From Clostridium sp. C105KSO13 (GTDB taxonomy: Bacteria; Bacillota; Clostridia; Lachnospirales; Lachnospiraceae), in contig NZ_FBWL01000171.1 of NCBI RefSeq assembly GCF_001517425.1, positions 186,001-250,000 on the forward strand: 64,000 nucleotides of DNA, in the 5' to 3' direction. The translations under genes were made by a program, and so were the position numbers. The notes beneath the pieces are model-generated. The model saw only the letters and a program-made list of their open reading frames with translations, was not told where the DNA came from and did not search any database. This document shows, piece by piece, positions 7,383 to 63,910 of this stretch. Each line of letters begins with the position of its first letter. The first letter of the stretch is position 1.

Positions 7383-7394
7383 CTAATATAAAAG

Positions 7395-7437
7395 AACCTC
7401 AATTCTACTAAAAATAAGTGGAATTGAGGTTTTTTTT
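7395..7437 (+). terminator. Intrinsic terminator after tRNA-Leu
   Basis: AACCTCAATTC (7395-7405) pairs with GAATTGAGGTT (7421-7431) and runs into eight T residues (7430-7437). Confidence 0.92.
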
Positions 7438-7447
7438 GAGAATCACT

Positions 7448-7473
7448 TAAAAATCTCATGGTCTTGTCGATAT
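7448..7473 (+). promoter_or_regulatory. Sigma-D (sigma-28) type promoter for the large surface protein
   Basis: TAAA (7448-7451) followed after 14 bases by GTCGATAT (7466-7473), one mismatch from the GCCGATAT box used by motility sigma factors. It lies 47 bases before the start codon, in the gap after the tRNA terminator. Similar boxes precede fliD and flgM in this window, which supports the call. Confidence 0.7.
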
Positions 7474-7520
7474 TATAACATAATAGTAGTTCTACCATTG
7501 GATAAAAACGGGAGGGCACC

Positions 7521-10500
7521 ATGGGGATTAGAAACGAGAAAAATAGAATATTAGGAGTATGTGGTATTCTTCTAACCATTCTTGTCTTTGCGCTCCTTTC
7601 CAGAGTGATTACAGTGCGGGCACAAGGGGTTTATGTACAGGAGAACATAGGGGATGAAAAAGTTGACCGTGAAGCAGCCAAAGAAGCAAAGGAAATTCAA
7701 AATCTTTTAAAATCAGGCGGCACATCCCAAACAGCAGAACAACAAGATGAGGCTCAGAATACTACAGGTCCTGCACTACATCTGAAGGAACAGCTTCAGA
7801 AAATGGCTGATGGTACAGTCAATGCGAACAAAGTACTGCTGAAAAGCAAAATGCATGTGTTAAGAACAGAAACTACAGACAACACGTTTAATATGGAGAA
7901 CGGCGATATTGTTTTGAAACCGGGTGGGGAATACAGTCAAACAAATGATACTTCATCCTTTGATAGTGCAGGAACGGTGCCGGATGAAAAATTTGTAATT
8001 AACGGCGGAGTAAGCGGTTGGACAGATCAGTATAATATAACAGTAAAACGAGGAGCTAATCCGGTAATCACACTTGAAGATTTAAAAATCGATTTATCAG
8101 GTTTCAATGATTTAGCTCCAAAAAGTCCCCTTTATATAGAAAGCGGTGCTACTGTTACACTTGTTTTATCAGGTGGACAAGATGAGGCAAAAGTGCTCCT
8201 GCAGGGAAGCCCGCTGGTGTCGGGAATTACTTTGGAAACAGGAGCCACGCTTCGTATTCAGGGGAAAGGTGATATCCTTGTATATGGGGGCGGAGGTGCG
8301 TATGCAGTTGGAAACGGAAACACTGCAGGAGGTTCGTTTTGGGTCGGTGAGGACGCAAGATTTCAGGCATACAGCAATATGGCAGATGGTGCAATCAATG
8401 TAAAAGTGTCTCAGACTGCAGATACAAGGCGAATTCTGCAGGGATCTCTTGCTGCAGCATTGGACGGCGCTGCTATTATCAAGGCTGAAAACAGGGACGA
8501 CTGGAATGAGCAGTACACCATGCATCTTCCGGATCAGTTCAGATCCTTTGCAGTGTCTACGACAACGCCAGGCGGTGATTATGTATCCTATATAGCTGCA
8601 GATGAAAATGCAGGTGTAAAGGATTCCATGCTGCTGGCGAACAGTTTAAATAAAGCGCAGCACAGCTATAATCTTACTGGCGCAGGCAACACAATTGCCT
8701 CACTGAAAGAACTGAAAAGTCAGAAGATTACATACACTGTATTACTTGACGCAAACGGAGGAACCTTTTCAGACAGAGACCCCAAGAAAATGTATGATAT
8801 TGGATATGGAACAACGATCAGTCTCCCGACAGCAGCTGCCCTTATCAGAGATAACCATGATTTTTCCGGCTGGCATAGAACAAAGGATTCCTTTGAAGAC
8901 GGGGATGAATGGGAATCTGACACGAAGGTAGTAAGAGACAGTACCTGGCTTTATGCATCCTGGATACCCCGGAACTGTACAGTTGAATATCGCTACGAAA
9001 ATGAGATCAAAAAGAAAGTAGAGGGGAAGAAATTCGGAGATACACTGAGTGATGATGAGTCAAATGCAGAGGAAACCCCACCTACTATTAATAAGACAAA
9101 CTATACAGTTGTAGGCTGGCTTGCGGAGGACGGCTCTAAGTGGGTATTTGGTAAAGATGGAACAAGGATTACGAAAGAAACTACTATACTTAAGCCATAT
9201 CTACTTGCAGACTGTAAAGTTACATTTAAAGAAAATGCGGGTAAAGATACTGTAACTAATATGCCTTCTATCAATCCAATGACAGTACCGGCAACTACCA
9301 GTCTTTCGGCAGTAACGACGGTGCCCGAGCGTGCTGACTATACATTTATAGGATGGTACAGGGATGCTAAGTGTACAAAGCCGTGGGATATGAATGCCGA
9401 CAAGGTTACGACCAGCATTACGCTGTATGCGGGCTGGGGAGCCAATGAGACAATAGTGACCTTTCATGTAGCAGAAGAAGGAGAAGAAAGTGTAGATCCT
9501 CCTTCAAGAACCGTCCCATTTGGGGAGAAAATCCCATCGCCGCATGCAGCAAAGAGTGAGCGTAAAACAAGCCTGCCCACAGGCTATAAAGTGGAAGGGT
9601 GGTATACGGATGAAAAGCTTACAAATAAGTGGGATTTTTCAGAGGGGCTGAAAGATTCTGATGGAAAATTTGACCTTTATGTAAAGTGGCATCAAGATAC
9701 ATGCTGGGCAACTTTTCTGCCTAACAGCACTGATGCAGCACTTCATGGGGAGCAGTCCCTATCGGTAGGTTATAACGAGAGTTTAAAGGGAGTTCATGTT
9801 GATTTGGAGAGCAAGCTTGAGAGCATGATTACACGAACCGGGTATGAGGTGAAAAACTGGGTTACCAGTGGAGGCAAAGTGTGGGATATGTCTGCTCCAT
9901 TGACAGAAGATATTGAGTTGAAAGCTCAATGGACGCCGAAGATTTTTGAAATCAACTTTAAGACTCCTCAGGAGGATTGCCCCATCTTATCTTCCGGTGA
10001 AAGCTCAAAGCAGGTTGCATATGGAAAAACATTAAGCGAACCAAAGTACCCCGCAGACGGGCAGACTTGGCCGGGGCATACGTTTCAGGGCTGGTATACA
10101 GAAAAAGACGGTAAGGGAGAAAAATGGAACTTTGCCGGCGCCCAAGCTGCAAATACAGTAGAAGGAGATACAGATCTTTACGCATACTGGACTCAGGACG
10201 AATATACAATTAATTTCCAAACCTATGCAGAGGACGAGAATCCTCCTGAACCGTATAAAGGATTCCTTTACGGTGAACTGCTTGCAAAACCTGACGATCC
10301 GGTCAGGGAAAGATATGAGCTTCTTGGATGGTATAGGGATGAAAATTGTACAGAATCGTGGGATTTTGATACAGATACAGTAACTGGAGATATGACCCTC
10401 TATGCCGGGTGGCAGGGGGAACCTGTAGATGTTATCCTCAATATAGAATACGAACCGGAAAATGAGAAACCAGGGAAGAACGTTCAGGTGGATGTGCAAG

Positions 10501-12098
10501 GAGTGCGCTTTGGAGACTTCTTAACGCGTGAACAAGTGGAGGATCAGGAAACGGAAGCGACAAAGAAGAGGCCCGGATATACGTTAAATGGCTGGTATAC
10601 AGATGAGCTGCATCAGGAAGAGGGGCTGTGGGATTTTGCACTGAACAGGGTGGAACCTCCGAAAAGCGAACCTCTCAATCTGTATGCGTACTGGACCTGG
10701 GATGAATATACAGCTCAGTTTATCACTTTTGACGGGGACACCAGCATTCCACCTCAAACCGGTCTGCGGTACGGCAATTTACTAACTAAGCCTTCACCGG
10801 ATCCTGAGAGGGAACATTATACTTTCGGAGCATGGCATACGGTTCAGAACCCGGAAGACGATACAACCGTATGGGATTTTGAAAAAACTAAAATAACAGG
10901 AGATATGTGTCTTTATGCGTCCTGGACACCGGACGTCTATACATTGTCCTTTGAGACAAACGGTGGTTCGGCCCTTGAGCCTGTAAAAGTAACTTATGGC
11001 ACGTATGTTCCCGATGAAAGTATGAAAACAACCAAAGAGGGATATGTGCTTGCAGGATGGTACCGTGACCCCGAGCTGACACAGCTTTTTGTGCCCGCTT
11101 CTGAATATGTTGACCATACAATGACCATTTATGCAAAATGGGAACTGAAAAAATATACAGTGCGCTATCACTATAGAGATTCCCCGGACAGTGATGAAGA
11201 AGAGGTGGAGACCTATAAGGAAGCTTTTAAAGTCGGAGATTATCTTACGAAACCAAATAAGACACTACCTCATAAAACTTTGAGTGCCTGGTATCAGGAT
11301 GATACATATCAGGATAAATGGGTATTTAAGCGGGATCAGGTCCGAGGTGATACGGAACTTTATGCATACTGGTCGGATACATTGTATTCGGTACATTTTG
11401 AAACTTATGATGGTACGGAAATAAAAGACCTGGAAATGATCTGGGGAGAACAGTTCGAGCCGCCGAAGGATCCTGAGAGAACAGGCTATACATTTACGGG
11501 CTGGTATAAAGATGCCCAGTGGAAGGAACCCTGGGATTTTAATGAGGACTTTGTGAATGGAAACACAATCATTTATTCCGGATGGAAAGCAAACATGTAC
11601 ACAGTCAGCTTTGATACCGCCGGGGGCTCGGAGCCTGTCGAGTCCCAGACGCTGGCCTATGATTCGCTGATTACAGAGCCATCCGCACCGGCGAAGGATG
11701 GATATACATTTGAAGGCTGGACGGATGCAGGAGGAAACAAATGGGATTTCGGTAGGGATACAATAAAGGAGGATACAGTATTAACAGCACAGTGGTCTGA
11801 AAATAAAGACGAGGATGACGATAATGAAACCACATCCGGCGGTACCCCTGGGACAGGCACAAAAAGCACCGACGCCCCAGGCTCAGAAACACAGAACTTG
11901 GGAACTGCAGGCGCAGGCACCCCAGGTGCAGGTGACACAGGTTCGGGAACAGGTACATCTGGTCAGGCGCTTAAAGATGCTGCCGGCGATTTAAAGGAAA
12001 TTCTCACCGGGGATAAAGCTCCGCTGACATATTCGATTGCAGGAATTATATTAGCTGCAGCCGGCATTCTCGGGTCATTGTATAAAAAGATGAGATAA
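7521..12098 (+). CDS. Large surface protein with 13 InlB/Flg_new-type repeats
   Basis: Secreted cell-surface protein of 1525 residues. A basic N-terminus and hydrophobic stretch (about 11-33) form a signal peptide. Residues about 100-400 are a beta-rich region with gly-rich turns and no recognised domain. Residues 403-1426 hold 13 repeats of about 70-90 residues of the InlB B-repeat family, each ending in the GWY...WDF...LYAxW pattern. Then comes a Gly/Thr/Ser/Pro-rich linker and a terminal hydrophobic segment (SIAGIILAAAGILGSLY) with a KKMR tail. No LPxTG motif is seen, so anchoring is probably by the C-terminal membrane segment. GGGAGG supports ATG 7521. Two hemerythrins follow within 20 bases in the same operon. 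The role is probably adhesion or matrix binding; the ligand is unknown. Confidence 0.9.
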   Translation: MGIRNEKNRILGVCGILLTILVFALLSRVITVRAQGVYVQENIGDEKVDREAAKEAKEIQNLLKSGGTSQTAEQQDEAQNTTGPALHLKEQLQKMADGTVNANKVLLKSKMHVLRTETTDNTFNMENGDIVLKPGGEYSQTNDTSSFDSAGTVPDEKFVINGGVSGWTDQYNITVKRGANPVITLEDLKIDLSGFNDLAPKSPLYIESGATVTLVLSGGQDEAKVLLQGSPLVSGITLETGATLRIQGKGDILVYGGGGAYAVGNGNTAGGSFWVGEDARFQAYSNMADGAINVKVSQTADTRRILQGSLAAALDGAAIIKAENRDDWNEQYTMHLPDQFRSFAVSTTTPGGDYVSYIAADENAGVKDSMLLANSLNKAQHSYNLTGAGNTIASLKELKSQKITYTVLLDANGGTFSDRDPKKMYDIGYGTTISLPTAAALIRDNHDFSGWHRTKDSFEDGDEWESDTKVVRDSTWLYASWIPRNCTVEYRYENEIKKKVEGKKFGDTLSDDESNAEETPPTINKTNYTVVGWLAEDGSKWVFGKDGTRITKETTILKPYLLADCKVTFKENAGKDTVTNMPSINPMTVPATTSLSAVTTVPERADYTFIGWYRDAKCTKPWDMNADKVTTSITLYAGWGANETIVTFHVAEEGEESVDPPSRTVPFGEKIPSPHAAKSERKTSLPTGYKVEGWYTDEKLTNKWDFSEGLKDSDGKFDLYVKWHQDTCWATFLPNSTDAALHGEQSLSVGYNESLKGVHVDLESKLESMITRTGYEVKNWVTSGGKVWDMSAPLTEDIELKAQWTPKIFEINFKTPQEDCPILSSGESSKQVAYGKTLSEPKYPADGQTWPGHTFQGWYTEKDGKGEKWNFAGAQAANTVEGDTDLYAYWTQDEYTINFQTYAEDENPPEPYKGFLYGELLAKPDDPVRERYELLGWYRDENCTESWDFDTDTVTGDMTLYAGWQGEPVDVILNIEYEPENEKPGKNVQVDVQGVRFGDFLTREQVEDQETEATKKRPGYTLNGWYTDELHQEEGLWDFALNRVEPPKSEPLNLYAYWTWDEYTAQFITFDGDTSIPPQTGLRYGNLLTKPSPDPEREHYTFGAWHTVQNPEDDTTVWDFEKTKITGDMCLYASWTPDVYTLSFETNGGSALEPVKVTYGTYVPDESMKTTKEGYVLAGWYRDPELTQLFVPASEYVDHTMTIYAKWELKKYTVRYHYRDSPDSDEEEVETYKEAFKVGDYLTKPNKTLPHKTLSAWYQDDTYQDKWVFKRDQVRGDTELYAYWSDTLYSVHFETYDGTEIKDLEMIWGEQFEPPKDPERTGYTFTGWYKDAQWKEPWDFNEDFVNGNTIIYSGWKANMYTVSFDTAGGSEPVESQTLAYDSLITEPSAPAKDGYTFEGWTDAGGNKWDFGRDTIKEDTVLTAQWSENKDEDDDNETTSGGTPGTGTKSTDAPGSETQNLGTAGAGTPGAGDTGSGTGTSGQALKDAAGDLKEILTGDKAPLTYSIAGIILAAAGILGSLYKKMR
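8727..11798 (+). repeat. Block of 13 divergent InlB-type protein repeats
   Basis: Thirteen tandem units within the surface protein, each opening with a beta strand (such as YTVSFDT) and closing with GWY plus a WDF or WDM turn and an LYAxW strand. The units are strongly diverged, with variable insertions, so DNA-level recombination between them looks unlikely to be recent. Confidence 0.88.
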
Positions 12099-12116
12099 GG
12101 AGATGGAGAAAAAGCT

Positions 12117-12527
12117 ATGAAATATGAACTGACAAAAGATCTGGAAACGGGGAATACATTGATTGATTCCGAGCACAGAGAACTGTTCAGAATGGTCAAT
12201 AATCTGCAGGAAGCCTGTGCAAAGGGGCAGGGGCGAAGTCAGGTGGAGACAGCAGCCGGATTTCTTGTGAATTATGTAAAAAAGCATTTCAGGGATGAAC
12301 AGAATCTTCAGACGAGTGTAAGCTATCCGGGATACCCGGCACACAGAAGTTTCCATGAAAATTACATATCACAAATTTCGGCTGCTGCTGACACAATACT
12401 TGTGAGCAATGCAGATATTGCCTCCCTGGCGGAGCTGAATCGTCTGATTGGCATACTGATCGCCCATATCCGCACAGAGGATAAGAAATTGGCAGCATAT
12501 ATTGTAAGTTATAAGAAACAGAAATAG
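12117..12527 (+). CDS. Bacteriohemerythrin, copy 1
   Basis: Di-iron, oxygen-binding four-helix-bundle protein of 136 residues. The full ligand set is visible: His20, His57, Glu61 (HFRDE), His76, His80 (HRSFH), His117 and Asp122 (HIRTED). Cytoplasmic, with no signal peptide. AAGGAGATGGAGAAA precedes ATG 12117, 18 bases after the surface-protein stop, so it is probably co-transcribed from the sigma-D-type promoter. In anaerobes such proteins store, sense or scavenge oxygen, and some act near chemotaxis systems; the exact role here is inferred. Confidence 0.92.
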   Translation: MKYELTKDLETGNTLIDSEHRELFRMVNNLQEACAKGQGRSQVETAAGFLVNYVKKHFRDEQNLQTSVSYPGYPAHRSFHENYISQISAAADTILVSNADIASLAELNRLIGILIAHIRTEDKKLAAYIVSYKKQK

Positions 12528-12558
12528 GTGTATTAATTGAAAGGGCTGGAAAAAGAAT

Positions 12559-12963
12559 ATGAAGTATGAACTGACAAAGGATTTGCAAACCGGAAACGCA
12601 TTGATTGATTCCGAGCACAGAGAATTGTTTCGGATTATTAATAATTTACAGGAGGCCTGTGCAAAAGGGCAGGGACGCGGTAAGGTTGAACCCACCGCAA
12701 AATTTCTTGTGGATTATGTAAAAAAACATTTTCGAGATGAGGAAGAACTGCAGAAAAGTGTTGAGTATCCTGGGTATTCGGTACACAAAAAATTTCATGA
12801 AGACTATATTATACAGATAGAAGGGGGAGCGGATAAAATACTGACTCATAATGCGGACATAGCGTCTTTGGCAGAGCTAAACAAGCTGATTGGTATATTG
12901 GTGGCTCATATTCGTACAGAAGACAGAAAGCTTGCATCTTATGTCAGCACACATGATAAATAG
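12559..12963 (+). CDS. Bacteriohemerythrin, copy 2
   Basis: Tandem paralogue of the preceding gene, 134 residues, identical at 99 of 134 aligned positions by eye count. All di-iron ligands are kept at the same positions (His20, His57, Glu61, His76, His80, His117, Asp122). Most changes fall between residues 41 and 90, around the metal-ligand helices, which may tune oxygen affinity. It lies 31 bases after copy 1 and ends just before a shared terminator. Confidence 0.92.
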   Translation: MKYELTKDLQTGNALIDSEHRELFRIINNLQEACAKGQGRGKVEPTAKFLVDYVKKHFRDEEELQKSVEYPGYSVHKKFHEDYIIQIEGGADKILTHNADIASLAELNKLIGILVAHIRTEDRKLASYVSTHDK

Positions 12964-12983: not shown

Positions 12984-13017
12984 AAAAAAGCATCTGTTCT
13001 AAAACAGATGCTTTTTT
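12984..13017. terminator. Bidirectional terminator between hemerythrin 2 and cheB
   Basis: AAAAAAGCATCTGTT and ACAGATGCTTTTTT form a symmetrical stem with A and T tails. It can end transcription of the hemerythrin operon (plus) and cheA-cheW-cheB (minus), which converge here. Confidence 0.9.
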
Positions 13018-13054: not shown

Positions 13055-13657
13055 TTATATTTCGGGTGGAAGATTCTTTCGAAGATATGCCATTAACAAG
13101 CCGGCTATATTCTGACAGGGTGCCTGTACACATACGGCGCCTATTTGGTGAGCCACCATTGGCATTCCATATACGACACTGGAATCTTTATCCTGCCCGA
13201 TGGTATAGGCTCCTTTTTGGCGCATGTGTAAGAGCCCCTGTGCTCCATCTCGCCCCATCCCGGTTAATATGATGCCCACCCCGCGCTGTCCGGCCGTTTC
13301 TGCCACAGAATGAAATAAAACATCTACAGAGGGGCGGTGTCCGCTTATCTTTTCCCCCGGAAATAAACCAACACGATAGTGGCTGCCGTCACGCAGCACC
13401 TTCATCTGCAGATCACCGCCGGGAGCAATCAGGGCAAGTCCGGGAGATATAATATCCCCATCTTTTGCTTCCCGCACCTCCATACGACAAAGTTTGTCCA
13501 GCCGATCGGCGTACATTTTTGTAAAGCCCTCCGGCATATGCTGCGTTATCACAATACCGGGAATATTTTCGGGAAGATCACGGAGGATTTGCAAAGTTGC
13601 CTCTGTACCGCCTGTGGAGGCCCCCACCGCAATCAGCATGGAGGATGGGACTTTCAT
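13055..13657 (-). CDS. cheB: Chemotaxis protein-glutamate methylesterase domain protein, receiver-less
   Basis: Removes methyl groups from receptor glutamates, and may deamidate glutamines, during adaptation. The 200 residues hold only the CheB esterase domain: Ser14 in GASTGG, His40 in TQHMP and Asp137 in LTGMGRDG make the expected catalytic triad. The N-terminal receiver domain and linker of canonical CheB (about 350 residues) are missing, so CheA cannot activate it by phosphorylation of this chain. The start overlaps the cheW stop by ATGA, so there is no room for a receiver in this frame upstream. It is the last gene of cheA-cheW-cheB. Confidence 0.9.
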   Translation of the reverse strand: MKVPSSMLIAVGASTGGTEATLQILRDLPENIPGIVITQHMPEGFTKMYADRLDKLCRMEVREAKDGDIISPGLALIAPGGDLQMKVLRDGSHYRVGLFPGEKISGHRPSVDVLFHSVAETAGQRGVGIILTGMGRDGAQGLLHMRQKGAYTIGQDKDSSVVYGMPMVAHQIGAVCVQAPCQNIAGLLMAYLRKNLPPEI

Positions 13658-16294: not shown

Positions 16295-16318
16295 ACACAT
16301 AGATCCACTATAAGTCAT

Positions 16319-16345
16319 ATATCGGCAAGGCAAACAAAAAAATAA
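16319..16345 (-). promoter_or_regulatory. Candidate sigma-D promoter for cheA-cheW-cheB
   Basis: On the minus strand a perfect GCCGATAT box (16326 to 16319) is preceded after 15 bases by TTAT (16345-16342), one base off the TAAT seen before fliD and flgM. It gives a 5' leader of roughly 130 bases before cheA. The weak -35 keeps confidence moderate. Confidence 0.45.
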
Positions 16346-16362
16346 TCAGGGCAGGTGATAAA

Positions 16363-17796
16363 ATGTCAAATGTTTTAAAAGTTACAACACCAATGACCGG
16401 ATATGAAAATTCAAATCAATTAAAGACAAACCCTTTAAAGACGGCGGACCCTTCCATACAGGGGCAGGTAAATCCGGAGAAAGTGGTAAGGCCGGATGCC
16501 AGGAATGACTCCGGGGCGGGACAAGATGCGGGATTGAAGTTTCAGTATGAATCCAATTATGGAACTTTCCTTCAGCAGCTGAAAGAAAGCCCTGCTCTGA
16601 CAGAGGAGTTTTCACAGATTTTTATGAGAGGCACAGGCACACTGGCAGAGTCGGGACTGAAGGAGGGATTTGCACAAAAGCTGACAGAGTTTTTCGAGAT
16701 GATTGAGTTCTCTCCCCGGGATATGCTGGGACTACTTAAGAATCAGAGCAATGCAGCTGTCCGCTTCAGCGGAACTTTTTTTTCTATGCTCAGGCAGGTG
16801 ATGAATTCCGACTCTCCCCTGGAACTTAAAGCGTCCATTCTTGATTTTATGAGACGGTACACAGATATGGCAGAGACACCACATCTTATGGAGAATATCC
16901 GACGTACACTGAACAATATAAAAGGGCAGATGTACAGAGATTCAAGAGAACAGCTGGAGCAGTTGGAGGAAAAACTTCAATATGGTACGGGCGGCGAAGA
17001 GATGAAGGAGAATATGGAAGCAATCCGCGGAAAAATTTTACCTTTCCTGAATCTTTACATATCCAGAAGCCATGAAAGAGGGAACTTAAGAGACATGGCT
17101 GCCCTTCTGGCATCATTTGCTGCACGCTGTGAAAACGGCAACCCGGACAGGGTTCAGGCTTCTTTTGAACAACTGATGAGATATCCGGACATGCAGAAGT
17201 GTTTCCGGGGATTTGACGTCTCTGCGCTGCTGCAGGTACTGGCCAATACTGAGTATGAAAAAGCATCCAGGCAGAATGAATGGATGAACCGGTTTGCGGA
17301 GATTATTAAATCGGGTATGGCAGGGGAGGCCGGAAGCAGTCAGAAGGCAGCCTTTGAAAATATGATGCATTCCATTCTGCTTAACGAAAGCGTATATATG
17401 CCGGTTCTCCACATGATGCTCCCCATGCAGGTGGGGGAACGACTTATGTTTGCGGAGATGTGGATAGACCCGGACGCTGAAGGTCAGGAGACACAAAAGA
17501 AATCCGTGATAGCAAAAAGGACAGTGCAGGGACTTTTAAAATTTGATATCAGAAATCTGGGTTTCTTTGATCTGTATTTTATCTATCAGGGCGGCAGCAT
17601 CAAGATGCAGCTGAACTGTCCGGAGAAACTGGAAGACAAAAGCCGCACTATTAAAGACGATATTTCAAAAATCATGTCTGAAAACGGGATAAAAGCAGAA
17701 GAACTATTTGTGGAAACAGGGCAGGAGTCTATCCCTGTATCCGATGCGTTTCCCAAAATATTTGAAAGGAAGAATTCAGTCAATGTCAGAATTTAA
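16363..17796 (+). CDS. YlqG-like protein with FliK-type C-terminal domain
   Basis: Protein of 477 residues with a polar N-terminus, a helical middle (about 65-350) and a C-terminal segment (about 370-465) resembling the flagellar hook-length (Flg_hook) domain. Its closest contextual analogue is Bacillus ylqG, which also precedes a FlhB C-terminal-like gene. It is distinct from the true FliK at 26098-27153. The function is unproven; an export or length-control link is suggested by the neighbour. The start ATG 16363 follows GGGCAGGTG. The downstream gene overlaps it by 14 bases. Confidence 0.6.
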   Translation: MSNVLKVTTPMTGYENSNQLKTNPLKTADPSIQGQVNPEKVVRPDARNDSGAGQDAGLKFQYESNYGTFLQQLKESPALTEEFSQIFMRGTGTLAESGLKEGFAQKLTEFFEMIEFSPRDMLGLLKNQSNAAVRFSGTFFSMLRQVMNSDSPLELKASILDFMRRYTDMAETPHLMENIRRTLNNIKGQMYRDSREQLEQLEEKLQYGTGGEEMKENMEAIRGKILPFLNLYISRSHERGNLRDMAALLASFAARCENGNPDRVQASFEQLMRYPDMQKCFRGFDVSALLQVLANTEYEKASRQNEWMNRFAEIIKSGMAGEAGSSQKAAFENMMHSILLNESVYMPVLHMMLPMQVGERLMFAEMWIDPDAEGQETQKKSVIAKRTVQGLLKFDIRNLGFFDLYFIYQGGSIKMQLNCPEKLEDKSRTIKDDISKIMSENGIKAEELFVETGQESIPVSDAFPKIFERKNSVNVRI

Positions 17797-38788: not shown

Positions 38789-39616
38789 ATGAAAGATAGA
38801 AAAACGCAAAGCAAGGTGCCGGAAGGGTATACAAATGAAGAACTTCTTTCACTTTATCAGGAGACAAAAGAGCCGGAGCTGAAAAAAGAACTGGCCCTCA
38901 GGTATCTTTATATTGTGAAGTGCATTGCTATACAGATGAGAGATGTCTATACCGGATTTACCCAGATGGAGGATATCGTGAATGAGGGTGTTTTGATGCT
39001 GATGACAGCCATTGATAAATTCGACGAAGGCAAAAATGTCAAATTTGAAACTTATGCATCCAGAAGAATCCGGGGAATGATTATTGATATTGCCAGGAAG
39101 CAGGATTGGATACCCCGTACTCTCAGAAAAAATCTGCGGGATATAAATGAAGTGTCCATGAAATTTTATTCCGGACACGGTAGGTATCCTACAATGGAGG
39201 AACTGGCAGAACGTATGGAAATGGAACCACAGAAGATTCGCAGCATAATGGGAAAAGCAAATCTGTCTTCTGTATTGTCACTGGATATGGTTCTTGAAGA
39301 GACCAGTGATCGTTACAGAGCAATCCAGATACCTTCTGACAAAAGAGAGAGCCAGCCGGAAGAAAACTTTCTGGATCAGGAATTCAAAAACACCCTGGCG
39401 AAAGGCATACGCTCTTTAAAGGAAAAAGAACAGACAGTAATCTCTTTATACTACATAGAAGAATTAAACATGAAACAGATTGCGTCGATCATAAATGTAA
39501 GTGAGCCAAGAGTGTCACAGATACATGCAGCCGCAGTTTTAAAGCTGAGAAAATATATAGAAAAGTTAAGCAGAGGTGAGGAAAAGGAGGAGACTTATGT
39601 TTCAGGGATTATATAA
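38789..39616 (+). CDS. fliA: Flagellar sigma factor FliA (sigma-D/sigma-28)
   Basis: RNA polymerase sigma factor for late motility genes, 275 residues. Region 2 has YASRRIRGMIIDIARKQD, and region 4 ends in MKQIASIINVSEPRVSQIH, the helix-turn-helix. It is expected to use the boxes at 7448, 45433 and 50697, and is inhibited by FlgM (50781-51113). GAGGGG precedes ATG 38789, and flgF overlaps its end by 20 bases. Confidence 0.95.
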   Translation: MKDRKTQSKVPEGYTNEELLSLYQETKEPELKKELALRYLYIVKCIAIQMRDVYTGFTQMEDIVNEGVLMLMTAIDKFDEGKNVKFETYASRRIRGMIIDIARKQDWIPRTLRKNLRDINEVSMKFYSGHGRYPTMEELAERMEMEPQKIRSIMGKANLSSVLSLDMVLEETSDRYRAIQIPSDKRESQPEENFLDQEFKNTLAKGIRSLKEKEQTVISLYYIEELNMKQIASIINVSEPRVSQIHAAAVLKLRKYIEKLSRGEEKEETYVSGII

Positions 39617-45432: not shown

Positions 45433-45459
45433 TAATTATTCTAAAGGTCCGGCCGATAA
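45433..45459 (+). promoter_or_regulatory. Sigma-D promoter for fliD-fliS
   Basis: TAAT (45433-45436), 15-base spacer, GCCGATAA (45452-45459), 55 bases before the fliD start. The -10 matches the sigma-28 consensus fully. Confidence 0.85.
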
Positions 45460-49597: not shown

Positions 49598-50699
49598 AGT
49601 GAAATGTCTGACAGAACTGTTGGGTGCACTAGTGAATCAGGAGGAGATTCCCAAATGGACCCGTGAGCCTGACTGGGGCAGACTCTATAAACTGGCAGAT
49701 TATCACGGTGTTGCAAATATGGTCTATTATGGGATTCTGGGTGCAGAAAGCAAAGCACTGAAGCCCTGGAAAAAGAAATTTGAAGAACGTTTTCACCAGG
49801 CAGTACTCAGTGATGAACGTTTTTCTTTTGCAGTTCCACTTGTTCTAAACAGTCTGGAGCAGCACAAAGTACACAGCATTCTGCTCCATGAATACCGTAT
49901 GCGGCATTTTTACCCTCAGACAGATATGAGAGCAACCAGATATGCGCGGGTACTTGTGGAAAAAGGAAAAGAAGATACAGTCAAAAAAGCAATGGAGTAC
50001 CTGGATTTTGAACAACAGGATTCCAGGACGCAAGGGGAGACCTGGTATTATAAGATACCGGGAATACTAATTATTTTTCAGAACAGCATGACTTTTACAA
50101 ACAAGAAAGTAAAGAAATATTTCTCTCTTTCTGTAAAGGATTATAAAAAAGAGAATGGATGCCGTTATATTCATGCTTTTGAACCTGAGGAGTTCTATGT
50201 CTATGTGATAGCCTGTGCAGCGGAAAGCTATGCGAAGGGAAACCTGGACATTCAGTTTATACTGGACATCTGGTTTTATTATATCAATGTATATAAAAGT
50301 CTGGACTGGACGGTCATTTATAAGGAACTGTCCTATCTGAATCTGGGAAACTTTCCTGACTACATTATTAAGTTGGCAGCTTTCTGGTTTGGCGGCATGC
50401 TTTTTCCGGAAGAAGAAGATTTTTTTGATTATATGGAAAGGTATATTTTATCAAAAGGTATTCAGTGTAGAAAAGAAAATGAGGAATTACTGCCTCTTGT
50501 GAAAGAAGTAGCAGATTTTTATAAAAAGGATTTGAAGCACAGACAAAGGGAACAGACGCTGGAGCAGCTTTTCCCCCAAAAGCAGTATATGAGTACTATG
50601 TTCCCGTTACTTTTGAAGCATCACTGGCTGCTCCCTGCATGCTGGGTATTTCGCCTGCTGCGAATGGCTGTACGAAAAAACAGGAGAACAAAAACTTAA
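49569..50699 (+). CDS. Degenerate nucleotidyltransferase-family protein
   Basis: Protein of about 376 residues resembling the uncharacterised nucleotidyltransferase family (NTP_transf_5): ADYHGVANMVYYGI near the N-terminus and a LLHEYRMRHFYP segment. Where active members have a GDxD pair the sequence reads DMRATRYARVLVE, so the catalytic acids appear lost. The start is uncertain; GTG 49569 with GAGAAGAGAG upstream is chosen, but GTG 49599 or in-frame ATG 49506 within the ABC gene are possible. The C-terminus is strongly basic. Its stop overlaps the flgM promoter. The function is unknown. Confidence 0.6.
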   Translation: MSEKINRSYEVKCLTELLGALVNQEEIPKWTREPDWGRLYKLADYHGVANMVYYGILGAESKALKPWKKKFEERFHQAVLSDERFSFAVPLVLNSLEQHKVHSILLHEYRMRHFYPQTDMRATRYARVLVEKGKEDTVKKAMEYLDFEQQDSRTQGETWYYKIPGILIIFQNSMTFTNKKVKKYFSLSVKDYKKENGCRYIHAFEPEEFYVYVIACAAESYAKGNLDIQFILDIWFYYINVYKSLDWTVIYKELSYLNLGNFPDYIIKLAAFWFGGMLFPEEEDFFDYMERYILSKGIQCRKENEELLPLVKEVADFYKKDLKHRQREQTLEQLFPQKQYMSTMFPLLLKHHWLLPACWVFRLLRMAVRKNRRTKT

Positions 50700-50722
50700 T
50701 TACAGCCCAGAAACGCCGATAT
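50697..50722 (+). promoter_or_regulatory. Sigma-D promoter for flgM-flgN-flgK-flgL
   Basis: TAAT (50697-50700), 14-base spacer, perfect GCCGATAT (50715-50722), 58 bases before flgM. The -35 uses the stop codon of the upstream gene. Confidence 0.87.
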
Positions 50723-50780
50723 TAAAATATAAGAGAAAATAAGCCATGAATTGCTGTGATTTAAAAAGGAGGCATGAAAG

Positions 50781-51113
50781 ATGGATATATCTATAGACAG
50801 TTCGGTGGATAACATAAGAAATTCTTATAAGAACCGAACTGTTTCAGACGCCGCAGAAAAAAGAAATCTTTCGGGCTGTTCAAGAGAACGGCAGTTTGAT
50901 AAGGTCATCATTACATCCAGCAGCCGTCAGGTTGAGGAGAAGAAGATAGCAGAAGAACTGACCAGACAGATTTTATCAGAAGTAAATACCCCCACACCGG
51001 AAGCAAAGATAGAGGAATTAAAGCAAAGAGTTACACAGGGAACTTATCTGGTCGATGCAGACAGACTGGCCGATAAAATACTGCTGCAAAGAGGAGAACA
51101 GACGGATGAATGA
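50781..51113 (+). CDS. flgM: Anti-sigma-D factor FlgM
   Basis: Binds FliA in the cytoplasm until the hook is finished and FlgM is exported. The 110 residues are polar and disordered at the N-terminus, with the C-terminal sigma-binding stretch ELKQRVTQGTYLVDADRLADKIL. AAAAAGGAGG precedes ATG 50781. It overlaps flgN by 8 bases and has its own sigma-D promoter, giving negative feedback. Confidence 0.92.
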   Translation: MDISIDSSVDNIRNSYKNRTVSDAAEKRNLSGCSRERQFDKVIITSSSRQVEEKKIAEELTRQILSEVNTPTPEAKIEELKQRVTQGTYLVDADRLADKILLQRGEQTDE

Positions 51114-60148: not shown

Positions 60149-63100
60149 ATGAAAAGGTGTAGAAGAGCCTTCATGATTTTGGCGGTTTCGCTGCTTCTGG
60201 CAGCTTGTGCATCCATATCATGCAAGGCACAGGAAGAAGAAGTTAAAAGGACTCTGGAGGATGTGCTTGCCGATGAGACAAGTACTTTCGAGGATGCAAT
60301 GAAAAGTCTGTATCAGGAATCGGAACCTGTCACAGCACTGGAGAATGTAGAAGAAGAGGTGAAAAATTCTTTTTATGACCGGCTTTCTGCCGCAGAGCAA
60401 TATCAACTCACCATACTTTACAAATATGAATTATTATCCAGAGCAGCAAAACACGAAGAAAAGGGTTACACAAAAGAACAGCTGGATGAGGTCTTAATGA
60501 CCTATCAGACACTTACCCAGGTACAGAAAGAAAGTGAAATAGGAGAAGAAATCCAGGTCAAAGAGCAACATCGATTATGGGAGAAAGAAGCTTTTCAATT
60601 TATGGAGAACAACGTTGGAAATCTTATATACTATCAGGAAGAGGAAGAGAAACATGTCACAGACTTTGTGTCCTATGCTCAGTACCTACAGAATACAGCA
60701 GATTTTTCAATCGAGGATCTTTTAACTGAACTCGATAGCTTAGAGACTATACCACCGGATTTGGATCCGGAAAAAGTATTAGAGAAAGTAAAAAGGCGTT
60801 TTTATGAGATTTATGGAATCCCTGCTGAGACTGAATCAAAGACCGGGCCGGTAGCAGAGCCAAAATCAGTAAAAGACAGAAAATTCGAACGTGCTGAAAA
60901 GCAGGCTGAGAAGGAAATGGAAGCAATGCGGATTAATGCGGTGGCACGGGTGGGAGATACTTACTACAAGACTTTTGATGCTGCATTTGCTGCTTTGCCG
61001 CCGGGCGGTACCATGTATGTACTTAAAGACTGTATTGCAGGACACAATGTTACAACCAAGTCCTTCACTATTTATCCAGAAGGACAGAACGTTACTGTGA
61101 CTGCAGACCCGAATCTTAAATGGGAGTCAGCAGGAATCCTTGCGGTTCCGACCGGTGTTGACAAAAATATCTCAGGTACATGGACGTTATCAGGAAATAA
61201 CGGGTATACACTGACTATTGATGGCAACAGGAAATGTTCCTCAGGTATTTTATCATCTCTGTGCAAAATAACTATCAATCTTAAAAACGGGGTCCGCTTG
61301 AGAAACGGTGCGGCGAATGGTGTATGGAACAGCTTGGGAACCACAAATATATATAAGGATGTACTAATTTATAATAATTTACATGCAGGAATTGCCTCCC
61401 AGGGTACGATAAATATGTATGATGGGGAGATTTACGGTAATGCTACCAATGGGATACGGGCAAAAGTTGTCAATGTAGCCGGGGGACAAGTGCATCATAA
61501 TGGGAGTGCCGGGGTACAGACTCAATGGGCAGACAACAGCACAGCAATTACCATCACAGGCGGTAGTATCTACAGTAACGCTACGGACGGAGTCGCCGCA
61601 TATGCCTCAAATGAGGTGTGTACTACCAATATCTCAGGTGGTAAAATCTATTCTAATAATCAGGCAGGAGTCAGATCTCAAGCGTCATCCGGTACATTAA
61701 AACTTTCTGGAGATCCTAATATTTTTCAAAATGCAACAGGTATCATTAATCTGTCAGCCGCAACTATGTCCGGCGGTGCAGTTTATGAAAATTTCAATGG
61801 CGGTATTCATACGTCAAAGTCATTCACCATGACAGGAGGCAGTGTATATGGCAATACATCTGAAAAAAATGGTGGTGGTATTTATAATTCGGGATCTCTT
61901 TTTTTATCTGGCGGGGAGATTTCTTCCAACAGGGGAACTTTTGGCGGTGGTATTTATAATATAGGCACACTGGGGTTAAATAAAACAGCGATTGTAAATA
62001 ATACTGCCCGGGCGGGCAGTGCCGTCTATCAGAACGGAATTATGAATGTGAGCGGAGAGGCCTGGATTGAAGAGAATAATGATGTTTATCTTCCGGAAGT
62101 GGGGAAAGTTATTACAGTTACAGGTCCTCTTACATCTAAAAAGACAGTGGCCCTTATAACACCTTCTGCCTATACCCTGGGGCGTACCTGTGTGAGAGCC
62201 AGCTATAACAAAGAAAAAGGAAGTGGGGTCTATCAGAAGTTTAATTTGAGCCCGCACGCATTCTATTTACTGCGCCCCGGGGATTACCAGTCAGGCGGTG
62301 CCGATACGGCAGATACGGATGTTGTAATCAGCAGGGCGTATACGATACATTATGAAGGAAATTATGATGATGACAGAATCCGGGTTCCGAAGGACGGGAA
62401 AAAGTATTGGTATGAAACTACAACAATATCGAGAGAAGTCCCCTATTTTGAATCTATAGGATTTAAAGGATGGTCCAGAAAGCCTGAGGCAGCGTCAGCG
62501 GCATACCAGCCGGGTGATGCACTCAGTGCAGCTTACAATGAAGAATTGGTTTTTTATGCACTCTGGAAGATGGAAGTTAAAGTTATCTATGTTAATAATG
62601 GTGCGGATTCAGGGACATCAAGGTCAGAATATGTCACTTTAAAGGAGTGCAGGGAGAATAATGGGTACGAAGTAAGAAAAAACACAAATTATACCAGATT
62701 TTCCCGAAAAGGATATAGTTTTATGGGTTGGACAAATGATGAAAAGGAGATAGGTAAGGGGGATGTAAAGTTTCCAGAAAGTAAGAAAAACATCGTCACA
62801 TTTGAGGAATTATGCCGGATATCTGGTGACCAGCAGAAGGATATTGTGGGAGAATCGGATATACCGGAAGTAAAAATGTTCTCCATGTGGAATGCAATTC
62901 CGAAAATCACAGCTAATGGAGTAAGAACATTTTATGAAGGGACCGATGTTACAAAAGAAATGCTCTTATCTAATATAAAAGCCTTTGACAATGAAGATGG
63001 GGATATTACAGAAAATGTCCGTATTATCTCTATAAAATATGCCGATAGAAATAGTCCGGATGGAACAAAACATAAAGGAGAAAGGACCGTCTGGGAGAAA

Positions 63101-63910
63101 GGAATGTCTTCTGATGAAAAATTAGACACCTGGTTTTTGCAGATGGAAAAAGGCGATTCACCTGCCATACATCGCATCACCTATGCAGTAACAGACAGTG
63201 CGGGGGCAGAAGCTGTGCTAGAATGGACAGTGAAAGTCAGGTTCAATGAATTTCCTGTCATAGAGGCGGCAGACAGGTATTTTACTTTGGAAGAGGCTCA
63301 AACAGGGAAAATTACAGAAGAAGAAATTCGGCAATATGCTTTAAAGACCGGGCGCATGAAGGCTTCAGATCAGGAAGATGATGCGTTGTATCCCGGGAGT
63401 ATACAGGAAAAGTTAAAACTGGTAGATTTCAGGCCGGAAGAGTTTTTAGAATTTAAAAAGCCGGGATATGTGGTGCTCACTTGCTCTGTACAAGACAGTA
63501 TGGGACCGGGGGGAGCAGGAAAGGAAACTTTACGCCAGTTTACCGTTCACATATTAGAAGACGGTGAAATTATAAAGCCGGAAGGACCAAAGTATGTGCG
63601 CTTTATTAATAGAGAAAATTACGAAAAAAATGCATACCTGGAAGCAGAAAACTTAAGCGCTTTTAAAAAAGAAAGTCTGAACCAAAACGGAGGCCTACAG
63701 GTGGATTCCAGGTGGTATCGGAATCCAGAGTATAAAGAATTAATATCGGGCTTATGGGAGAAAGGAAGAACAGCAGAGAAGGTGTGGAATTTTTCGCAGG
63801 GAGATGTGGGAAAAGTCAAAGAGTACATAAATACCCATGGTATTGGAAACAGTAAAGAGAAAAATGCATTGACACGGTTTTTGAGGCAGTTCGATTCTCA
63901 AAATCATTAA
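60149..63910 (+). CDS. Large beta-helix surface lipoprotein with InlB-like and Ig-like regions
   Basis: Exported protein of 1253 residues. The signal sequence ends in a lipobox-like LAAC at Cys20, suggesting lipid anchoring; cleavage after CKA is an alternative. Residues 35-230 are helical and acidic. Residues about 330-635 form a right-handed beta-helix of GGxIYxN-type rungs (GGSVYGNTSEKNGGGIYNSG). Residues about 730-915 contain two InlB/Flg_new-like units (FKGWSRK, FMGWTND). Residues about 916-1080 resemble DUF5011 Ig-like domains (FDNEDGDITENV). No C-terminal anchor is present. GGAGGAGG precedes ATG 60149. The role is unknown, perhaps polysaccharide or host binding. The rest of the window (63911-64000) holds no gene I can support. 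Confidence 0.85.
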   Translation: MKRCRRAFMILAVSLLLAACASISCKAQEEEVKRTLEDVLADETSTFEDAMKSLYQESEPVTALENVEEEVKNSFYDRLSAAEQYQLTILYKYELLSRAAKHEEKGYTKEQLDEVLMTYQTLTQVQKESEIGEEIQVKEQHRLWEKEAFQFMENNVGNLIYYQEEEEKHVTDFVSYAQYLQNTADFSIEDLLTELDSLETIPPDLDPEKVLEKVKRRFYEIYGIPAETESKTGPVAEPKSVKDRKFERAEKQAEKEMEAMRINAVARVGDTYYKTFDAAFAALPPGGTMYVLKDCIAGHNVTTKSFTIYPEGQNVTVTADPNLKWESAGILAVPTGVDKNISGTWTLSGNNGYTLTIDGNRKCSSGILSSLCKITINLKNGVRLRNGAANGVWNSLGTTNIYKDVLIYNNLHAGIASQGTINMYDGEIYGNATNGIRAKVVNVAGGQVHHNGSAGVQTQWADNSTAITITGGSIYSNATDGVAAYASNEVCTTNISGGKIYSNNQAGVRSQASSGTLKLSGDPNIFQNATGIINLSAATMSGGAVYENFNGGIHTSKSFTMTGGSVYGNTSEKNGGGIYNSGSLFLSGGEISSNRGTFGGGIYNIGTLGLNKTAIVNNTARAGSAVYQNGIMNVSGEAWIEENNDVYLPEVGKVITVTGPLTSKKTVALITPSAYTLGRTCVRASYNKEKGSGVYQKFNLSPHAFYLLRPGDYQSGGADTADTDVVISRAYTIHYEGNYDDDRIRVPKDGKKYWYETTTISREVPYFESIGFKGWSRKPEAASAAYQPGDALSAAYNEELVFYALWKMEVKVIYVNNGADSGTSRSEYVTLKECRENNGYEVRKNTNYTRFSRKGYSFMGWTNDEKEIGKGDVKFPESKKNIVTFEELCRISGDQQKDIVGESDIPEVKMFSMWNAIPKITANGVRTFYEGTDVTKEMLLSNIKAFDNEDGDITENVRIISIKYADRNSPDGTKHKGERTVWEKGMSSDEKLDTWFLQMEKGDSPAIHRITYAVTDSAGAEAVLEWTVKVRFNEFPVIEAADRYFTLEEAQTGKITEEEIRQYALKTGRMKASDQEDDALYPGSIQEKLKLVDFRPEEFLEFKKPGYVVLTCSVQDSMGPGGAGKETLRQFTVHILEDGEIIKPEGPKYVRFINRENYEKNAYLEAENLSAFKKESLNQNGGLQVDSRWYRNPEYKELISGLWEKGRTAEKVWNFSQGDVGKVKEYINTHGIGNSKEKNALTRFLRQFDSQNH

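Follow-up and report, generated by a model that had tools for sequence, protein, structure and literature searches.

A probable sigma-28-dependent operon combining a fibrillar-adhesin-like stalk protein with bacteriohemerythrins in two Lachnospiraceae genera

The window, i.e. the whole 64-kb stretch of DNA that was analysed, belongs to a 3.2-Mb genome and contains a gene for a 1525-aa repeat protein followed by two hemerythrin genes, an arrangement that a sequence-only reading had proposed and that the ORF list and profile searches bear out (Table 1). The gaps in this unit, referred to here as the stalk operon, are 18 nt between the ORF at 7521-12098 and hemerythrin 1 and 31 nt between the two hemerythrins; neither holds a hairpin, in agreement with the earlier statement that no terminator lies inside the unit. 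The promoter-like element of that reading is also base-exact, with TAAA at 7448-7451, a 14-nt spacer, and GTCGATAT at 7466-7473, and 47 nt (7474-7520) separate it from the ATG at 7521, as had been claimed. This TAAA-N14-GTCGATAT stretch (7448-7473) is enclosed by the longer CTTA-N16-GTCGATATT (7446-7474). Downstream of the stalk operon, and convergent with it, are cheB, cheW, and cheA. Further along the window, profile searches identified FliE, FliF, FliG, FliA, FliD, FlgM, FlgK, FlgL, and CheR, with the FlgM frame (PF04316) at 50781-51113.

Table 1. Features of the stalk operon and reference features elsewhere in the window
Feature	Position	Strand	Basis
Intrinsic terminator 3' of tRNA-Leu	about 7390..7437	+	Stem-loop -24.4 kcal/mol, z -7.2, then T8
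Predicted sigma-28 (FliA/SigD) promoter, CTTA-N16-GTCGATATT	7446..7474	+	Motif and spacing as in fliC and flgM promoters
Ribosome-binding site GGGAGGG	7510..7516	+	Read from sequence
1525-aa fibrillar-adhesin-like surface protein	7521..12098	+	ORF, Pfam, structure prediction
Bacteriohemerythrin 1, 136 aa	12117..12527	+	Profile match, all seven di-iron ligands
Bacteriohemerythrin 2, 134 aa	12559..12963	+	Profile match, all seven di-iron ligands
Terminator between hemerythrin 2 and convergent cheB	12984..13017	+	-17.8 kcal/mol, z -5.2
Reference sigma-28 promoter, TTA-N16-GCCGATAT, cheA-cheW-cheB operon	16318..16346	-	Matrix; kept in congeners
fliA, motility sigma factor, in flagellar gene cluster	38789..39616	+	TIGR02479, 221 bits, cut-off 189.6
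Reference sigma-28 promoter, flgM-flgN-flgK-flgL operon	50694..50723	+	Genus motif, matrix

A scan of related genomes for the same operon, which the sequence-only reading had suggested, found it in all four genomes of the genus and, in a longer version, in three genomes of a sister genus; the stretches read in the relatives were those around motility genes and stray motif matches. The congeners compared with the window are Muricomes intestini DSM 29489, Faecalicatena contorta NLAE-zl-C134, and Ruminococcus sp. MAG_3. The box is kept before the stalk gene in 4/4 genomes, and the congeners carry the canonical GCCGATAA shortly 5' of the start codon. DNA and genes farther upstream are unrelated among the four: the neighbour is tRNA-Leu in the window, an unrelated gene in M. 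intestini, and a divergent Fe/Mn superoxide dismutase in F. contorta (where this was read by Pfam) and MAG_3. Since the upstream genes differ between species, the box has not been carried along by its context. The operon holds one hemerythrin copy in M. intestini and two in the window, F. contorta, and MAG_3, and the copy number presumably varies by tandem duplication. A convergent flagellin gene follows the operon in F. contorta, and fliA was found in the window and in all congeners. The superoxide dismutase gene of F. contorta is at L083:7130-7765 (-), with two MCP genes beyond it, and the upstream region of MAG_3 starts in the same way.

In the sister genus, the orthologous operon is present in G087, Dorea sp. 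D27 (L084), and Lachnospiraceae CE91-St61 (L085), and its order is box, CZB-MCP, stalk protein, FapA, EAL phosphodiesterase, and hemerythrin. The MCP encoded by the first gene is soluble and has a zinc-binding CZB domain, FapA is broken into two ORFs in Dorea sp. D27, and the stalk-protein orthologue is 45-48% identical over its full length. The box at the operon head reads TTA-N16/17-GYCGATATATA in the three genomes. In CE91-St61 and G087, the hemerythrin has a flagellin gene with a box of its own at a distance of about 1.3-2.5 kb, and none was found within the stretch examined in Dorea sp. D27. Convergent with the sister-genus hemerythrin is a gene for a protein of about 380 aa without a clear family and with its own sigma-28-like box (L084:15954-17102 (-) and L161:2957-4243 (+)). 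Across 397 Lachnospiraceae genomes, the N-terminal domain of the stalk protein occurs in five and is confined to the two genera. All five operon-bearing genomes of this family sample have fliA; since 52% of the family genomes have it generally, this co-occurrence is weak evidence for sigma-28 control. More distant hemerythrins of the family (57% identity or less) are neither in a stalk operon nor behind a box in the stretches examined.

Both hemerythrins of the window exceed the TIGR02481 cut-off of 51.75 (92.1 and 99.6 bits), and their NF033749 subfamily scores of 82.7 and 85.4 bits fall on either side of the 84-bit cut-off. The second is 74% identical to the first, and the di-iron ligands H20, H57, E61, H76, H80, H117, and D122 (five His, one Glu, one Asp) do not vary among eight sequences. 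Of the solved structures, DcrH (2awc, 2.2e-8) and other bacteriohemerythrins are the closest. The two proteins may buffer or sense O2. It is possible, though somewhat doubtful, that in swimming cells they act as O2 or redox sensors, linked to chemotaxis or to c-di-GMP signalling, and not as protective buffers. In the sister genus, the hemerythrin operon also encodes a CZB chemoreceptor and an EAL phosphodiesterase, and fusions of hemerythrin domains to MCP, DGC, or HD-GYP domains have signalling roles (PMC9388753); however, the window hemerythrins stand alone without an output domain, and in their genus the operon lacks both the MCP and the EAL gene. The sigma-28-dependent hemerythrin FedA of Campylobacter jejuni is needed for chicken colonisation and apparently has no part in protecting Por/Oor (PMC4257069), which would suit a sensor, whereas the superoxide dismutase divergent from the operon in F. 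contorta suggests oxygen defence.

The stalk protein consists of a hydrophobic segment predicted to be a signal peptide or TM helix (residues 8-34), a variable region, a head (about 120-373), and Flg_new repeats (about 400-1425), followed by a Gly/Thr-rich linker, an invariant ILTGDKAPLTY motif, a TM segment (1502-1520), and a basic KKMR tail. Nine significant repeat stretches of the Flg_new/InlB type were detected (PF09479, 2.4e-112); the repeats are about 70 residues long, and InlB B-repeat structures (2y5p and others) match them with 3e-8. In fibrillar adhesin-like proteins, Flg_new serves to build stalks (PMC9210967). A first AlphaFold model of residues 35-416 had a pLDDT of 41 and was unusable; the trimmed head, modelled with eight sequences, is predicted to be beta-helix-like with a mean pLDDT of 83.6. 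The ILTGDKAP motif differs from canonical LPXTG and the genome has two sortases; surface anchoring by the C-terminal segment is uncertain.

The description "adhesin-like" in the sequence-only reading suits the architecture: the putative secretion signal, predicted beta-helix head, Flg_new stalk, and C-terminal membrane segment fit a fibrillar adhesin, and the protein may accordingly bind a target. The Pfam search matched no adhesive, glycosidase, or lyase family and no recognised binding domain in the head. It is unlikely that the protein is instead an enzyme or a structural coat that aids swimming, e.g. by cleaving glycans with its beta-helix head. Some proteins with Flg_new stalks do bear potential catalytic heads (PMC9210967), and VIA-align places the head closest, among solved folds, to pectate lyase and phage tailspike depolymerases (Z 7.7), but that Pfam result gives no lyase or glycosidase, the beta-helix fold is common, and the A-domain of an adhesin-like wall protein also matches (Z 6.1). 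These structural matches, with Z 7.7 or less, may show only the common beta-helix arrangement; Foldseek against the PDB gave no significant match for the head.

The bare box is insignificant by itself since the loose Bacillus-type consensus, TAAA-N13-16-GYCGATA, is not enriched genome-wide (13 matches vs 23 for the reversed control), and this consensus was dropped as evidence and replaced by a motif of the genus. Flagellin genes were found in 4/4 genomes, and their upstream DNA shares CTTAT-N15-GACGATATT. The genus motif, CTTA-N16-GNCGATAWT, was chosen to fit both the flagellin and the stalk-operon box, i.e. it was written with knowledge of the latter; it has 15 exact matches in the four genomes, and the reversed control has six. 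Twelve of the 15 are fliC, the flgM-flgN-flgK-flgL operon, and the stalk operon, each in every genome. The other three (G000:C159, G003:C4, and G003:C7) are inside or antisense to coding frames, have no properly placed gene start behind them, and are regarded as chance.

Because the genus motif was written knowing the stalk-operon box, an independent test was made with a weight matrix trained on 14 fliC, flgM, and cheA promoters, from which the stalk-operon promoters were excluded, and applied to the two window strands (about 128,000 positions). The top scores are flgM (25.8 bits), cheA (25.1), and the box at 7466 (22.6); the next is 13.4, and the best score in 30 simulated windows is at most 17.0. 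When either flgM or cheA is left out of the training, the 7466 box stays at rank 2, and when fliC is left out its score is 12.7 bits and its rank 4. The boxes of the sister genus have lower scores, at 12-18.5 bits. The second base of the -10 box is T in the window and C in the congeners, and most fliC and flgM boxes have an A there. Under the genus-specific motif and matrix, the predicted stalk-operon box is highly significant. A further GCCGATAA box is present at 45452-45459 (+), about 50 nt 5' of fliD; its TTA is 17 nt upstream, a spacing one nt longer than that of the other class-III boxes. Against TIGR02479, most Lachnospiraceae FliA copies reach 260-280 bits, and those of the genus and of the sister genus score below this (about 220 bits in the window); a divergent FliA subclade could account for the uncommon CTTA / GACGATAT motif.

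It is very unlikely that the box resembles a sigma-28 promoter only by chance or descent and that a sigma-A element or read-through from rplT/tRNA-Leu drives the operon: a weak sigma-A-like match (TTAAAA-N18-TATTAT, 9/12, at 7447-7476) does overlap the box and the loose SigD consensus is unenriched, but the CGATA core and the CTTA at fixed N16 are common to the fliC, flgM, and stalk boxes and sigma-A needs neither, the differing upstream genes show that the box is not kept through its context, and the strong terminator between tRNA-Leu and the operon is predicted to insulate it from read-through.

Sigma-28/SigD control, as the sequence-only reading had proposed, is supported by the box in all four congeneric genomes with differing upstream neighbours, by a motif and spacing identical to those before flagellin and flgM in each of these genomes, by the presence of fliA within the same gene block, and by the sigma-28-type box that heads the orthologous operon in three sister-genus species, in two of which (CE91-St61 and G087) it stands beside flagellin. 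We infer transcription by FliA from these promoter comparisons, and sigma-28 control of the stalk operon is very likely. With a probability of roughly 78%, the unit is a class-III FliA-dependent operon that gives a surface stalk protein together with O2-binding cytoplasmic hemerythrins. The further claim that these proteins are produced only in flagellated cells exceeds the evidence and is unproven, an overlapping weak sigma-A match being present.

In the flagellar cascade, FliA is set free once FlgM is exported. In the proposed scheme, completion of the hook and export of FlgM would let FliA-RNA polymerase transcribe flagellin, flgM-K-L, cheA-W-B, and the stalk operon together. The first gene of the operon would yield a fibrillar surface protein that is secreted and anchored at its C-terminus. 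Its Flg_new stalk may hold the N-terminal beta-helix head at a distance from the cell, and the head may attach to a surface, to mucus, or to other cells. Cytoplasmic bacteriohemerythrins, made from the same mRNA, would bind O2 at their di-iron site and buffer or sense it for swimming cells leaving the anoxic lumen.

FedA (CJJ81176_0083) of C. jejuni 81-176, whose gene is controlled by sigma-28 (PMC4257069, citing Barrero-Tobon and Hendrixson 2012), resembles the window proteins as a stand-alone hemerythrin co-expressed with flagella in a gut bacterium; however, PMC4257069 describes no operon with a surface stalk protein, and C. jejuni belongs to another phylum and is a microaerophile rather than an anaerobe. 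In Clostridioides difficile, SigD positively affects the adhesin gene cbpA and the cell-surface/wall protein gene CD0514, and its promoter is similar (TAAA-N15-18-CG with a CGAT-type -10), but the regulon comprises different proteins and hemerythrin is absent from the main text (PMC3865298). HemAT of Bacillus subtilis is likewise an O2-binding protein in a SigD regulon (PMC5540618), although it is heme-based and fused to a chemoreceptor, whereas the window hemerythrins are non-heme di-iron proteins that stand alone. Desulfovibrio DcrH, the closest solved hemerythrin domain, comes from an anaerobe and is linked to chemotaxis, but it is fused to an MCP, unlike the separate proteins of the window. 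The Listeria InlB B-repeat/Flg_new fibrillar adhesin-like proteins share the repeats and a secreted anchored stalk; in comparison, the window protein is without a recognised LRR domain or canonical LPXTG, and its beta-helix-like head carries no annotation and is confined to two genera of the family. A search of the open-access literature, which covered few subscription papers, turned up no sigma-28 operon uniting a stalk protein and hemerythrins and no account of Lachnospiraceae hemerythrins. A sigma-28 hemerythrin and a SigD adhesin have separate precedents, and their combination in one operon of an anaerobe appears to be new.

Class-III flagellar operons usually concern filament, motor, and chemotaxis. 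A conserved one that, in anaerobes, also encodes a giant surface stalk protein and O2-binding proteins points to motility, attachment, and oxygen handling as parts of one programme, in which a swimming cell is probably equipped with a sticky fibre and an oxygen-handling protein of its own. When Campylobacter (FedA) is compared with Muricomes/Faecalicatena and the sister genus, it is plausible, if still tentative, that the coupling of the flagellar sigma factor to hemerythrin is recurring and evolved independently in gut bacteria of different phyla, and that one class-III operon pre-arms swimming cells for the mucosal O2 gradient and supplies an adhesin for landing. The Gram-positive anaerobe case would be a second, independent system besides FedA for asking why swimming cells need hemerythrin.

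Some other proteins of the motility block are recorded here. A 1253-aa protein (60149-63910, +), which ends the block, has Flg_new-like matches only below threshold. A 477-aa protein (16363-17796, +), divergent from cheA and without a Pfam or NCBIfam match, is kept in the congeners beside the flagellar cluster; it does not correspond to the MCP found in the sister-genus operon. CheB of the window (13055-13657, -) has 200 aa and only the methylesterase domain, and CheB of M. intestini also has 200 aa, while that of F. contorta (L083:15970-17061) has 363 aa and includes the receiver domain. Loss of the receiver domain would uncouple CheB from CheA phosphorylation.
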